Positions 20,138-25,174 of a DNA stretch of 32,573 nucleotides are shown here, piece by piece. Under the pieces are notes generated by a model. The model made no database searches and had not been told where the DNA came from. It was given only the letters and a program-made list of their open reading frames with translations. Source of the DNA: Paracoccaceae bacterium (lineage in GTDB: Bacteria > Pseudomonadota > Alphaproteobacteria > Rhodobacterales > Rhodobacteraceae); the NCBI GenBank assembly GCA_017854675.1, contig JAFMHE010000012.1, forward strand, positions 1 to 32,573, read 5' to 3'. Within the stretch, counting starts at the first letter, position 1. The number at the start of each line of letters is the position of its first letter. The position numbers were made by a program, and so were the translations under genes.

Positions 20138-20938
20138 ATGAATATGGCCAGCTATCCTGTTGTGAACCCGGTCGGCAAAGACGCGCAGCGCGATGCTTTG
20201 CGTGATGTTTTTCTGGGCTCTGACAAAGCGACGCGCCAACGTCTGGTGCCGGTCTTGCCGCCTGCCGAGGTGACGTTTGCGGGCATTCGCATGTATGTCG
20301 ACCCGCGTGACAATTACACCGACCGGATGATCTGGCTGCATGGGCAGCCGCCAGAAATGCAGTCGCTGATGGCATTGACCGAGGTGGTTGAGGGAAAAAA
20401 CGCCTTTGTTCTGGATGTGGGTGCAAATTCGGGTGCCTTCACGGTCCCGCTGGCATTGGCCGCAGGGGCAGCCAGCAGGATCATCGCGTTTGAGCCTAAT
20501 CCGGTAATGATCGGGCGTCTTGCCCATAACGTCGGGCTGAATGGACTGCGTGAAAAGGTCAGGATAGAGAGCTGCGCACTGGGGGATGCACCGGGTGAAG
20601 CGCTGTTGAACCTGCGGGTGGGCAACCACGGTCAGGCCTCGCTAAAGCCCATCGTGGGGCGCGCGCGCGAGGGTGGCACGCTGGTCCCGGTCAGACCGTT
20701 GATGGACTTTGTCGGGCAAGCCGCAAAGCATGATTATTCGGTGTTGAAGGTGGATGTCGAGGGGGCAGAAGTCGATGTTTTGAACCCGATGCTGGAGGCT
20801 GGTGGCTGGCTGCCTGATGCCATGCTGATCGAGACGCGGCATGCAGATGCGTGGGACGTCGATCTGGTTGGGAAAATAACGGCTCTGGGGTTTGCGATAA
20901 CCTTGGAAGCCGACGGAAACACGCTGTTCGTCCGGTAA
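20138..20938 (+). CDS. FkbM-family SAM-dependent methyltransferase between sdhA and sdhB
   Basis: 266 aa; FVLDVGANSGAFTVPLALAAGAASRIIAFEPNPVMIGRLAHNVGLNG, VLKVDVEGAEVDVL. Confidence 0.85.
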   Translation: MNMASYPVVNPVGKDAQRDALRDVFLGSDKATRQRLVPVLPPAEVTFAGIRMYVDPRDNYTDRMIWLHGQPPEMQSLMALTEVVEGKNAFVLDVGANSGAFTVPLALAAGAASRIIAFEPNPVMIGRLAHNVGLNGLREKVRIESCALGDAPGEALLNLRVGNHGQASLKPIVGRAREGGTLVPVRPLMDFVGQAAKHDYSVLKVDVEGAEVDVLNPMLEAGGWLPDAMLIETRHADAWDVDLVGKITALGFAITLEADGNTLFVR

Positions 20939-21020: not shown

Positions 21021-21800
21021 ATGGTTCAGCTCACACTCCCCAAGAACTCCCGCATGACGACGGGCAAAACATGGCCGCGCCCCCAAGGGGCGACCAACGT
21101 CAAGGAATTCCACATCTACCGTTGGAACCCCGATGACGGCAAAAACCCTGCCGTGGATACCTATTTCGTCGATCTTGATACCTGTGGCCCGATGATTTTG
21201 GACGCACTGATCAAGATCAAGAACGAGATTGACCCGACGCTGACCTTCCGCCGGTCCTGCCGCGAGGGGATTTGTGGTTCCTGTGCTATGAACATCGACG
21301 GGATCAACACGCTGGCCTGCACTTACGGTGTGGAAGAGGTCAAAGGCACGGTCAAAATCTATCCGCTGCCGCACATGCCGGTGATCAAGGATTTGATCCC
21401 TGATCTGACGCATTTTTACGCGCAGCACGCCAGTATCCAGCCGTGGTTGGAAACGGAAACGCCCGCACCGGCAAAAGAATGGAAGCAGTCGATCGACGAT
21501 CGTCAAAAACTGGACGGCCTATACGAGTGCATCATGTGCGCGTGTTGTTCCACGTCTTGCCCCAGCTACTGGTGGAACGGCGACCGTTATCTTGGACCAG
21601 CAGCATTGCTGCACGCCTACCGCTGGATCATCGACAGCCGGGATGAGGCGACCGGAGAGCGGTTGGACGAGTTGGAAGACCCGTTCAAGCTTTATCGTTG
21701 CCACACGATCATGAACTGCGCGAAAACATGCCCCAAGGGTTTGAACCCGGCGGCAGCGATTTCCAAGATCAAGAAACTGATGATCGAACGCACGGTTTGA
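21021..21800 (+). CDS. sdhB: Succinate dehydrogenase iron-sulfur subunit
   Basis: 259 aa; [49 protein letters not shown] cluster-ligand motifs. Confidence 0.98.
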
Positions 21801-21959: not shown

Positions 21960-23612
21960 ATGACAGATCACACATTCAAGCCGGATATCATTGTTGTCGG
22001 CGCGGGCCTTTCTGGCATGGTTGCAGCGCATGAGGCGATCTTGCGGGGGCGCAAAGTCTTGATGTTGGATCAAGAAGCGCCGCAGTCCCTTGGCGGGCAG
22101 GCGTTTTGGTCGCTGGGCGGGCTGTTCATGGTGAACTCACCCGAACAACGCCGTCTTGGCATCCGCGATTCAGTTGAATTGGCGTATAATGACTGGATGG
22201 GTTCCGCCCAGTTTGACCGACCCGAGGATGCCAACCCCAAGCTGTATGCCGAAAAGTTCATTGAGTGGTCGGCGGGGGGCATGCGGCGCTGGTGTTTTGC
22301 GCTGGGTATGCGGTGGTTTCCGGTGGTCGGGTGGGCAGAGCGGGGCGGTGCAGATGCACAAGGGCATGGCAATTCCGTGCCGCGCTTTCACATTACATGG
22401 GGCACCGGCACGGGTGTTGTCGCGCCTTTCGTAAAGCTTGTGACCGACTATGCGGCGGCGGGCAGTCTGCGCATCGCATTTCGTCACCGGGCGACAGAAC
22501 TGATCACAACAAATGGCGCTGTGACAGGCGTGCGTGGCGATGTTTTGGAAGACAGCCTTGCCGCGCGGGGGCACAGCACTTCCCGGGTTGTCACCGGCAC
22601 GTTTGAACATCACGCAGAGGCGACGGTCCTGACCACAGGCGGCATTGGCGGCAACCACGATACGGTGCGCGCGCATTGGCCGGTGGACCGGTTGGGAAAA
22701 CCGCCAAGCAGAATGGTCGCGGGTGTGCCTGATTATGTCGACGGAAAAATGCACGGGTTTGCCGCCGATGCCGGGGCGGGACTAATCAATGAGGACCGCA
22801 TGTGGCACTATTGCGAGGGCGTGCAGAACTGGAACTCCATCTGGCCCAACCACGGTATTCGCATTTTGCCCGGTCCGTCCTCTATGTGGTTCGACGCAAA
22901 AGGCGACCGGATGGAGGCCCCCTATTATCCCGGTTTCGACACGCTGGGGACGCTAAAGCGCATTTTACAGGCGGGGGAACATTCGTGGTTCATCCTGACC
23001 CAGAAAATCATCGAAAAGGAATTTGCCCTTTCGGGATCAGAGCAGAACCCGGATTTAACTGATGGCGGCTGGCGCGATGTCCTCAAGGCGCGTCTGGGCA
23101 AAGGCGCGACACCGGCGGTCGAGGCGTTCAAGAAACATGGCGACGATTTCGTTGTGGCGGATGATCTCGAAACGCTTGTGGCCGGGATGAACAAGATCAC
23201 GCCAGAGGCGCCTGTCGATCTGGATCACATTCGCACGCAAATCCGCGCGCGGGATTTGCAGATCAACAACCCGTTCTGCAAGGATGCGCAGATTACGGCG
23301 ATCAATGGCGCGCGCACCTACAAGGGTGACAAGTTGATCCGCACAGCAAAACCCCATGCTATTCTGGACAAGGCCAATGGGCCGCTGATTGCCGTCAGGC
23401 TGAACATCGTGACGCGCAAGTCGTTGGGCGGGTTGCACACCGATATTGAGGGGCGCGTTCTGACGCCAAAGGGCGACGTGTTGCCGGGATTATTCGCAGC
23501 GGGCGAAGTTTGTGGCTTTGGCGGTGGCGGTTATCACGGATACAATGCGCTGGAGGGGACATTCTTGGGTGGGTGCCTGTTTTCGGGCCGTATGGCGGGG
23601 CAAAACGCATGA
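21960..23612 (+). CDS. FAD-binding dehydrogenase (succinate dehydrogenase/fumarate reductase/ketosteroid-dehydrogenase-like flavoprotein)
   Basis: 550 aa; IIVVGAGLSGMVAAHEAILRGRKVLMLDQE...SLGGQAFWSLGG; C-terminal GLFAAGEVCGFGGGGYHGYNALEGTFLGGCLFSGRMAG. Confidence 0.85.
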   Translation: MTDHTFKPDIIVVGAGLSGMVAAHEAILRGRKVLMLDQEAPQSLGGQAFWSLGGLFMVNSPEQRRLGIRDSVELAYNDWMGSAQFDRPEDANPKLYAEKFIEWSAGGMRRWCFALGMRWFPVVGWAERGGADAQGHGNSVPRFHITWGTGTGVVAPFVKLVTDYAAAGSLRIAFRHRATELITTNGAVTGVRGDVLEDSLAARGHSTSRVVTGTFEHHAEATVLTTGGIGGNHDTVRAHWPVDRLGKPPSRMVAGVPDYVDGKMHGFAADAGAGLINEDRMWHYCEGVQNWNSIWPNHGIRILPGPSSMWFDAKGDRMEAPYYPGFDTLGTLKRILQAGEHSWFILTQKIIEKEFALSGSEQNPDLTDGGWRDVLKARLGKGATPAVEAFKKHGDDFVVADDLETLVAGMNKITPEAPVDLDHIRTQIRARDLQINNPFCKDAQITAINGARTYKGDKLIRTAKPHAILDKANGPLIAVRLNIVTRKSLGGLHTDIEGRVLTPKGDVLPGLFAAGEVCGFGGGGYHGYNALEGTFLGGCLFSGRMAGQNA

Positions 23613-24454
23613 GCATGATCCCCCCAGATGCAGACGCACGCCGTGCGATCCCGCCGGTGATCTGCTACCCGGTTGAAACGCTCCCGCAGCCTGACATGGC
23701 GATCTACGCCAATGCGCGAGAGACGCTGACCAAGACGGGCGAGGTTCTTGTCCCGCCACGCGATGCCGCAACATTTAACGTGCCTGCAGGTCATTTCTTT
23801 CGCATTACGTCCGTAGAAGGGTCGCAGGTCGGTGATCTGAACCTGTGGAATGCCAATGATCTGAACGAGCGGTTCTATTCCGGCAAAACCCGCGCATTGC
23901 ACGGCACGCATATTACGACTGGCGACAGGATGTGGTCATCCTTTCCCGGACTGCGGCCCATGGCGACGATCACCTATGACAGTCTGGGCTGGTACGGGAT
24001 GGACCCGTTTGGCGGTTCTGTCCATGATGTTATTGGCACCCGGTGCGATCCCTATACGCATAGTCTGTTGAAGGGCGGGCAGTACCACCATTGTTGCCAC
24101 TCCAATCTGACACGCGCGATGGCGGATCATCTGGGCGTGTCGCCGGTTGAGGCCGAAGCGCATGTGCATGACGTGCTGAACGTCTTTATGTGCACAGGTT
24201 TCACCCGCGACACCGGGCAGTATTTTATGAAGGCCAGCCCCGTAAGGCCCGGCGATACGTTGGAATTCTTTGCAGAGATTGATCTGATTGGTGCGCTCAG
24301 CGCCTGCCCCGGAGGGGATTGTTCGGCTGAGCATTCATCAGATACGGCCGCGTGCCATCCGCTTTTGGTTGAAACGTTTCAGCCTGCTGCGGGTGCATTG
24401 GACGGTTGGGTCGCTCCTGCCGTAAATGGATACGACAGAAGCCATGGCCGGTAA
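23609..24454 (+). CDS. DUF1989 (urea carboxylase-associated) family protein
   Basis: 281 aa from MSMIPPDADARRAIPPVICYP; RCDPYTHSLLKGGQYHHCCHSNLTRAM and CPGGDCS resemble the DUF1989 metal-ligand pattern; ATGA overlap with the preceding FAD gene. Confidence 0.75.
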   Translation: MSMIPPDADARRAIPPVICYPVETLPQPDMAIYANARETLTKTGEVLVPPRDAATFNVPAGHFFRITSVEGSQVGDLNLWNANDLNERFYSGKTRALHGTHITTGDRMWSSFPGLRPMATITYDSLGWYGMDPFGGSVHDVIGTRCDPYTHSLLKGGQYHHCCHSNLTRAMADHLGVSPVEAEAHVHDVLNVFMCTGFTRDTGQYFMKASPVRPGDTLEFFAEIDLIGALSACPGGDCSAEHSSDTAACHPLLVETFQPAAGALDGWVAPAVNGYDRSHGR

Positions 24455-24469
24455 TCGGGCGGGGTACAT

Positions 24470-25174
24470 TCAGGCGAATGCCGCCTCTAGCGCGATTTTG
24501 ACCATATCGCCGAACGTCTTTTCGCGATCCTCGGCGGGCAAGGCTTCGCCCGTTTGGAGATGGTCCGATACGGTAAGCACGGCCAAGGCCCGACGACCGT
24601 GCCGCGCAGCAAGAGTATAAAGCTCGGCTGCTTCCATCTCGACGGCAAGAATACCGTGGCGCACCATTTGCGCATCCAGATCATCGCGTTCGGCATAGAA
24701 TACATCTGATGAATAGATACCGCCGACATGTGTCTTTGCGCCTCTATTCTCGGCTGCGGCAACGGCTGCGCGGAGTAGCGGCCAATCTGCAACGGGCGCA
24801 TAGTTCACTTCGCGGAAAATAGCCGAGGAAGGGGAGGTAATGGTGCTGGCGGTCATCGCGATAATGACATCGCGAATACCAACATGCGGTTGCATGCCGC
24901 CGCAGGACCCGATGCGAATAAGCGTCTGGGCGTTGTGATCCCGGATCAATTCATTCACGTAAATCGACAGGGACGGCATGCCCATCCCGGAACCTTGGAT
25001 GGTCACACGGTTGCCTTTCCATGTGCCGGTAAAGCCCAGCATGCCGCGCACTTCATTGACCAATACCGCGTCTTTCAGAAACGTTTCGGCGGCCCATTTG
25101 GCGCGGTATGGATCACCGGGCATAAGGATCGTTTCAGCGATTTCGCCAGGCTTTGCGCCGATATGAATTGTCAT
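24470..25174 (-). CDS. deoD: Purine-nucleoside phosphorylase, DeoD type
   Basis: 234 aa [33 protein letters not shown]...RIGSCGG...[20 protein letters not shown]; start at 25174 behind GGGGAAAG. Confidence 0.95.

Follow-up and report, generated by a model that had tools for sequence, protein, structure and literature searches.

Does a flavoprotein gene that overlaps the gene of a DUF1989 protein mark a dedicated two-step pathway, or do the two genes merely share a locus? The question is raised by a window of 32,573 nucleotides (the whole stretch of DNA analyzed here, contig JAFMHE010000012.1 of a Paracoccaceae bacterium), in which the gene order is sdhCDA, a small lipoprotein-like open reading frame, an FkbM methyltransferase gene, sdhB, the FAD gene (product P0001), the DUF1989 gene (product P0002) and a convergent deoD. 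An earlier note on this DNA had read the two genes as a translationally coupled pair, inserted between sdhB and deoD and forming a catabolic unit for a small nitrogen-containing substrate. Its coordinates for both reading frames and for the ATGA that joins stop and start were reproduced (Table 1). The FkbM-type and lipoprotein-like genes lie between sdhA and sdhB (window positions 20138-20938), and are likewise placed in about half of the congeners. A promoter and terminator scan gave promoters at chance level and 7 terminators versus 3.8 expected, with nothing convincing between sdhB and the FAD gene, and no guanidine or other riboswitch was found in the window.

Table 1. Features of the sdhB-deoD region in window coordinates
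Feature	Position	Strand	Remark
sdhB	21021..21800	+	Usual upstream neighbor of DUF1989 in the family; profile match
P0001, FAD-dependent dehydrogenase, 550 aa	21960..23612	+	FAD_binding_2; NF009472/PRK12834
Stop/start overlap ATGA (translational coupling)	23609..23612	+	Kept in 10/13 same-genus FAD-bearing loci
P0002, long-form DUF1989 protein, 281 aa	23609..24454	+	Ortholog of SPO0365/PDB 3DI4
Predicted metal-site residues of P0002	23834..24307	+	Shared with DUF1989 structures 3ORU/3SIY and TMAO demethylase
D76	23834-23836	+	Predicted metal-site residue
C146	24044-24046	+	Predicted metal-site residue
H160 / C163	24086-24088 / 24095-24097	+	Predicted metal-site residues
C233	24305-24307	+	Predicted metal-site residue
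Extra Cys/His cluster of the long subfamily, C233-P-G-G-D237-C238...H242...C249	24305..24355	+	
deoD, purine-nucleoside phosphorylase	24470..25174	-	Convergent, downstream of DUF1989

The flavoprotein class proposed for P0001 was borne out by its matches to Pfam FAD_binding_2 (1.7e-71) and to NCBIfam NF009472 (PRK12834; 889.9 bits, well above the equivalog cut-off of 476), a FAD-binding dehydrogenase model that names no substrate. The FAD-binding motif stands almost at the start of the protein, which has no obvious signal peptide. P0001 has its FAD domain in common with the flavocytochrome c, urocanate reductase and ketosteroid dehydrogenase superfamily, and in its C-terminal motif GGGGYHGYNALEGTFLGG the His of flavocytochrome c and urocanate reductase is kept (H526). 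At the aligned position of the HGANRLGG/HGTNRLGG Arg of those enzymes, however, P0001 has Ala-Leu-Glu, and the fumarate-reductase-type catalytic Arg motif is absent there. Because P0001 differs from fumarate and urocanate reductases in its catalytic motif, its chemistry is not readable from its relatives. Assignment as a fumarate reductase or 3-ketosteroid dehydrogenase was rejected, with scores of 104 against a cut-off of 285 for flavo_cyto_c, 48 against 788 for PRK07843, and 47 against 789 for PRK12844. The predicted structure of P0001 had a pLDDT of 39, and no result rests on it.

The DUF1989 homology of P0002 was confirmed by profile search (PF09347; 3.8e-49, 167 bits, gathering cut-off 27), and the structure model of the protein (pLDDT 75) gave significant E-values solely with other DUF1989 structures. 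Its sequence carries the three Cys ligands and the HxxC motif of the family. The predicted ligands C146, C163 and C233 are invariant in 42 orthologs and align with 3ORU and with 9Q59, the structure of the TMAO demethylase Tdm; as a whole, the predicted metal-site columns are invariant or near-invariant in the alignments. H160 was assigned to the site by alignment with the HxxC of relatives and is missing from the invariant list. The Cys/His clusters singled out by the earlier note were retained in large part, with Y159, C162-N166, C233-G236 and C238 invariant and D237 conserved in at least 90% of the 42 orthologs, but H160 and H161 are not on the list. The long subfamily has an extra cluster, CPGGDC...H...C, whose C238, H242 and C249 are invariant in the same orthologs and which is unaligned in the short DUF1989 protein of locus L257 and in 3ORU. 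Mean column identity in the long subfamily is 76% across the 42 orthologs, which come from several orders; judged from sequence, conservation this strong indicates a defined enzyme.

To place the pair in the family, we surveyed 199 genomes, one per genus save two from the window's genus (probably Sulfitobacter); outside the window's own genome, genes were called with tblastn, using a chosen set of references, and by simple ORF picking. DUF1989 orthologs were found in 136 of the 199, usually directly behind sdhB, and P0001-like proteins (at least 60% identity) in 43. The two genes are adjacent or nearly so in 14 of the 136, where FAD identities fall to 68%, and in 13 of the 20 genomes from the same genus; each also occurs independently of the other. 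The ATGA overlap is kept in 10 of these 13 (the spacing is 61, 385 and 579 bp in the other three), and this recurrence at the level of the genus makes the coupling more than chance. In other genera, the gap runs from an overlap (genome G198) up to 2.8 kb, and in several of them a stretch of 0.6-2.8 kb parts the two genes, with an ornithine-decarboxylase-like gene inside it in some. The pair is real and shared beyond the window's genome.

One hundred DUF1989 neighborhoods were read, 20 of the same genus and 80 of other genera, the latter deliberately enriched for FAD neighbors. In 14 of the 80, the same strand carries the ornithine-decarboxylase-like gene (PF02784/PF00278) no more than 4.5 kb upstream of DUF1989; its closest structures are lysine/ornithine decarboxylases. 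This type III PLP enzyme stands beside DUF1989 in many Rhodobacteraceae and is about as common there as the FAD gene (loci L274, 7594-8811; L123, L126, L136, L137, L351, L363, L369 and L371).

A tree of 52 FAD proteins placed the copies at the sdhB locus in one group but for one relocated copy, with 2 label changes versus 16 in shuffles. The near-single group means that the pair goes back to about one insertion, and common ancestry by itself suffices to explain why it recurs; by the tree, the pairs at the sdhB locus would essentially trace to that event, having been inherited and often lost. No FAD-DUF1989 pair away from the sdhB/deoD locus was seen in 20 loci of other alphaproteobacterial families, in 20 plasmid loci (a non-random sample) or in the 80 named loci, and all pairs were at the syntenic sdhB/deoD locus rather than recurring independently at unrelated ones. 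A search for conserved pairs, which the earlier note had called for, returns conserved adjacency, but at one locus and of about one origin.

These data bear directly on the idea of a dedicated two-enzyme unit, in which the flavoprotein would oxidize a small nitrogen-containing substrate and the DUF1989 protein would then hydrolyze the resulting C-N bond. The retained overlap and the adjacency that persists despite diverging FAD proteins speak for it, as does an association in gene presence: DUF1989 is carried by 39 of 43 FAD-positive versus 97 of 156 FAD-negative genomes (p=0.0002, uncorrected for phylogeny) and, where the FAD gene is unlinked, by 25 of 29 versus the same 97 of 156 (p=0.011, likewise uncorrected). 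The unlinked association leaves room for a functional link between the two. Against such a unit stand the single locus with essentially one insertion, the absence of a FAD gene from the locus in 7 of 20 congeners, the intervening stretch in several genera, and the FAD copies elsewhere, which sit among housekeeping genes such as yebC whose identity offers no hint of a substrate. While the coupling within the genus and the flavoprotein class of the earlier proposal stand, the dedicated unit itself is left weak by the 122 of 136 family genomes in which DUF1989 has no adjacent FAD gene, and we consider it rather unlikely.

At 18 of the 20 same-genus loci and at 60 of the 80 family loci from other genera, sdhB lies upstream of DUF1989; deoD follows downstream at all 20 and at 60 of the 80, respectively. 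Related genomes show DUF1989 as native to the sdhB-deoD interval, which leaves the FAD gene as the one apparent insertion; the claim that the pair was inserted holds for the FAD gene and not for DUF1989, the usual occupant. The locus looks like an accretion site. At 14 of the 80 family loci, an SHMT-like gene (PF00464) lies close to DUF1989 but is encoded on the opposite strand; it sits between DUF1989 and deoD in L115, L116, L118, L135, L153, L156-L158, L173, L174, L185, L362 and L367. The position behind sdhB could also mean that the DUF1989 protein is a housekeeping factor tied to succinate dehydrogenase, acting in its maturation or repair, and the frequency of sdhB upstream is what this reading would expect. 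Yet DUF1989 is missing from about one third of the family, whose members presumably all have sdh, and in other orders it was not seen beside sdh and has its own LysR or GntR regulators or lies in carboxylase operons, making a role linked to succinate dehydrogenase quite improbable.

Orthologs of P0002 are also found in other alphaproteobacterial families and, at about 50% identity, in other classes. A divergent LysR gene stands ahead of DUF1989 in 25 of the 80 named loci. On 7 rhizobial/Microvirga plasmids, the gene order is pxpA, a fused CT_CD/CT_AB carboxyltransferase, a biotin carboxylase with BCCP, and DUF1989, which is possibly an undescribed carboxylase-linked nitrogen pathway. The operon is found at L276, L285, L286, L288, L290 and L292, all on rhizobial/Microvirga plasmids, and at L278; a divergent GntR gene usually lies upstream of it. 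The earlier note had no carboxylase in view, which is correct for the window but misleading for the family: orthologs elsewhere lie directly behind a biotin-dependent carboxylase. Klebsiella plasmids carry a related pxpA/carboxylase set with a DUF1989 protein about 50% identical to P0002. The gene was seen in 41 Klebsiella plasmid records (about 50% identity among the matches listed), and in one of them (L282, Klebsiella pneumoniae pKpN06-SIL 67030-87767) it adjoins a set of genes for an amino-acid ABC transporter, GntR, NRAMP, pxpA, a hydro-lyase, a carboxyltransferase and a biotin carboxylase.

Within the Rhodobacteraceae, pxpA lies about 0.1 kb upstream of DUF1989 in one genome (G153). Co-occurrence with PxpA is weak in the family (102 of 136 DUF1989-positive versus 36 of 63 negative genomes; odds ratio 2.25, p=0.013, uncorrected for phylogeny), and this rules out a strict coupling of the two. 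In Azospirillum ramasamyi, DUF1989 overlaps pcp, a pyroglutamyl peptidase gene. In three Rhodobacteraceae where DUF1989 is off the sdhB site, it lies among genes that resemble EutC, DoeA, EutA or DAP lyase, or among transporter genes of polyamine type. L182 and L187 pass the EutC-type model PRK08291, TIGR02992 EutC is not passed, EutA scores 147 against a cut-off of 318, and DoeA (cut-off 613) passes in L182 alone (620.8; 573 in L187). A specific ectoine pathway was rejected on these scores.

In the Hyphomicrobiales, too (Bosea and relatives; L332, L335 and L343), some 2.7 kb separate DUF1989 from the gene of ethylmalonyl-CoA mutase (ecm), here without sdhB or deoD, and the linkage with ecm may be older than that with sdhB. 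In Leucothrix pacifica (L354, 8980-10278), the gene convergent to DUF1989 encodes a creatinase/prolidase-type M24 protein that, judged by eye, resembles creatine amidinohydrolase. Outside the sdhB site, the LysR, pxpA/carboxylase, pcp and Eut/Doe-type neighborhoods point to small nitrogen compounds with amidine- or lactam-type C-N bonds, with no agreement on one substrate.

We therefore favor, at a probability of about 0.4, the reading that P0002 is a stand-alone, metal-dependent C-N hydrolase with the FAD enzyme as an optional accessory. The reading rests on the metal-site residues common to 3DI4, 3ORU/3SIY and the Zn-binding TMAO demethylase, and on the independent associations with nitrogen-compound genes, among them the ornithine-decarboxylase-like gene immediately upstream. 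P0002 would be self-sufficient and cytosolic, probably using Zn to cleave a C-N bond. The substrate would be a small nitrogen compound, most likely amidine-, guanidine-carboxylate- or lactam-like, with a product that would enter different pathways in different bacteria. In Rhodobacteraceae, the gene is parked behind sdhB; in one lineage, including the window's genus, a flavin dehydrogenase gene would have entered between the two by a single ancestral insertion, and in Sulfitobacter the FAD and DUF1989 genes would then have become translationally coupled. The flavoprotein probably serves an optional oxidation of the same or a related nitrogen compound, and DUF1989 would function independently of it. 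Several points count against this reading: the neighborhoods vary so much that none is decisive, co-occurrence with PxpA is weak, and the presence of FAD and DUF1989 genes is associated even when they are unlinked. In addition, Tdm shows that such a domain is capable of chemistry beyond hydrolytic deamination.

More broadly, SPO0365-type DUF1989 proteins could define an undescribed pathway that is linked to a biotin carboxylase, runs parallel to the guanidine carboxylase route and handles small cyclic amidines or lactams. In this speculative and, on balance, unlikely scheme, BC-BCCP with CT_AB/CT_CD would activate the substrate, DUF1989 would remove nitrogen, and PxpA would replace allophanate hydrolase; Rhodobacteraceae would keep the DUF1989 step alone, with some coupling a flavin dehydrogenase to it. 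Of the two proteins, the DUF1989 protein holds more interest. Its ortholog group is extremely conserved and was found in two thirds of the genera sampled from a family of abundant marine and soil bacteria, the SPO0365 structure 3DI4 has been public since 2008 with no function assigned, and the recurrent placement of the gene after a biotin-dependent carboxylase, both in rhizobia and on Klebsiella plasmids, offers a substrate class that is concrete and can be tested. In itself, the pairing with the FAD gene is a lineage-specific gene arrangement of lesser importance.

Among known systems, P0002 has the PF09347 domain and the conserved metal-site residues in common with the carboxyguanidine deiminase CgdA/CgdB and the urea-amidolyase-associated proteins UAAP1/UAAP2, and its rhizobial orthologs follow a biotin-dependent carboxylase whose CT domains also occur in urea/guanidine carboxylase. 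It could thus be a deiminase or associated protein of a guanidine or urea pathway. Carboxyguanidine deiminase, however, is heteromeric and the partner of guanidine carboxylase (PMC11410670), and no second DUF1989 subunit was found in the window's genome (89% complete), where the sole other DUF1989 domain is Tdm-like. Nor did that genome give a match above the cut-off for urea/guanidine carboxylase (TIGR02712); the carboxylase profile search returned only separate biotin-carboxylase and carboxyltransferase pieces. As a UAAP, P0002 was rejected at 46.2 bits against 284.7 for UAAP2 and 36.2 against 205.95 for UAAP1. With the window also lacking a guanidine riboswitch, this assignment is highly improbable, and the difference from CgdA/CgdB drawn in the earlier note is upheld.

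Alternatively, P0002 might be a Tdm-like demethylase or lyase, a metal-dependent enzyme that cuts the C-N bond of an N-oxide or N-methyl compound and releases an aldehyde. Methylated amines are among the compounds that marine hosts use, and the window's own genome has an apparent TMAO demethylase gene with DUF1989 and GcvT-like regions (G000:C97:4252-4755, L002). The Zn ligands in the DUF1989 domain of Tdm have been given (PMC12560246), and its three Zn Cys are conserved in the P0002 alignment. Tdm is multidomain, with a C-terminal GcvT-like domain, whereas P0002 stands alone, with no second Pfam domain in its 281 aa, a score of 26.5 bits against a cut-off of 1100 for NF053776, and no methylamine genes beside it, so that identity with Tdm was rejected and a Tdm-like activity is doubtful. 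The short DUF1989 protein TM1040_0329 (PDB 3ORU/3SIY) has the fold class and core metal-site residues in common with P0002; it is about 25% identical and has neither the aligned N-terminal extension nor the extra cluster. SPO0365 of Ruegeria pomeroyi, in contrast, is about 73% identical over the full length, with the same long form and Cys/His clusters and no clear sequence difference; its only mention in PMC8319176 is as a candidate group confined to aminolipid producers. On the sequence evidence, P0002 is a DUF1989 member of the SPO0365 type outside CgdAB, UAAP and Tdm, which may work as they do, by metal-dependent C-N cleavage.
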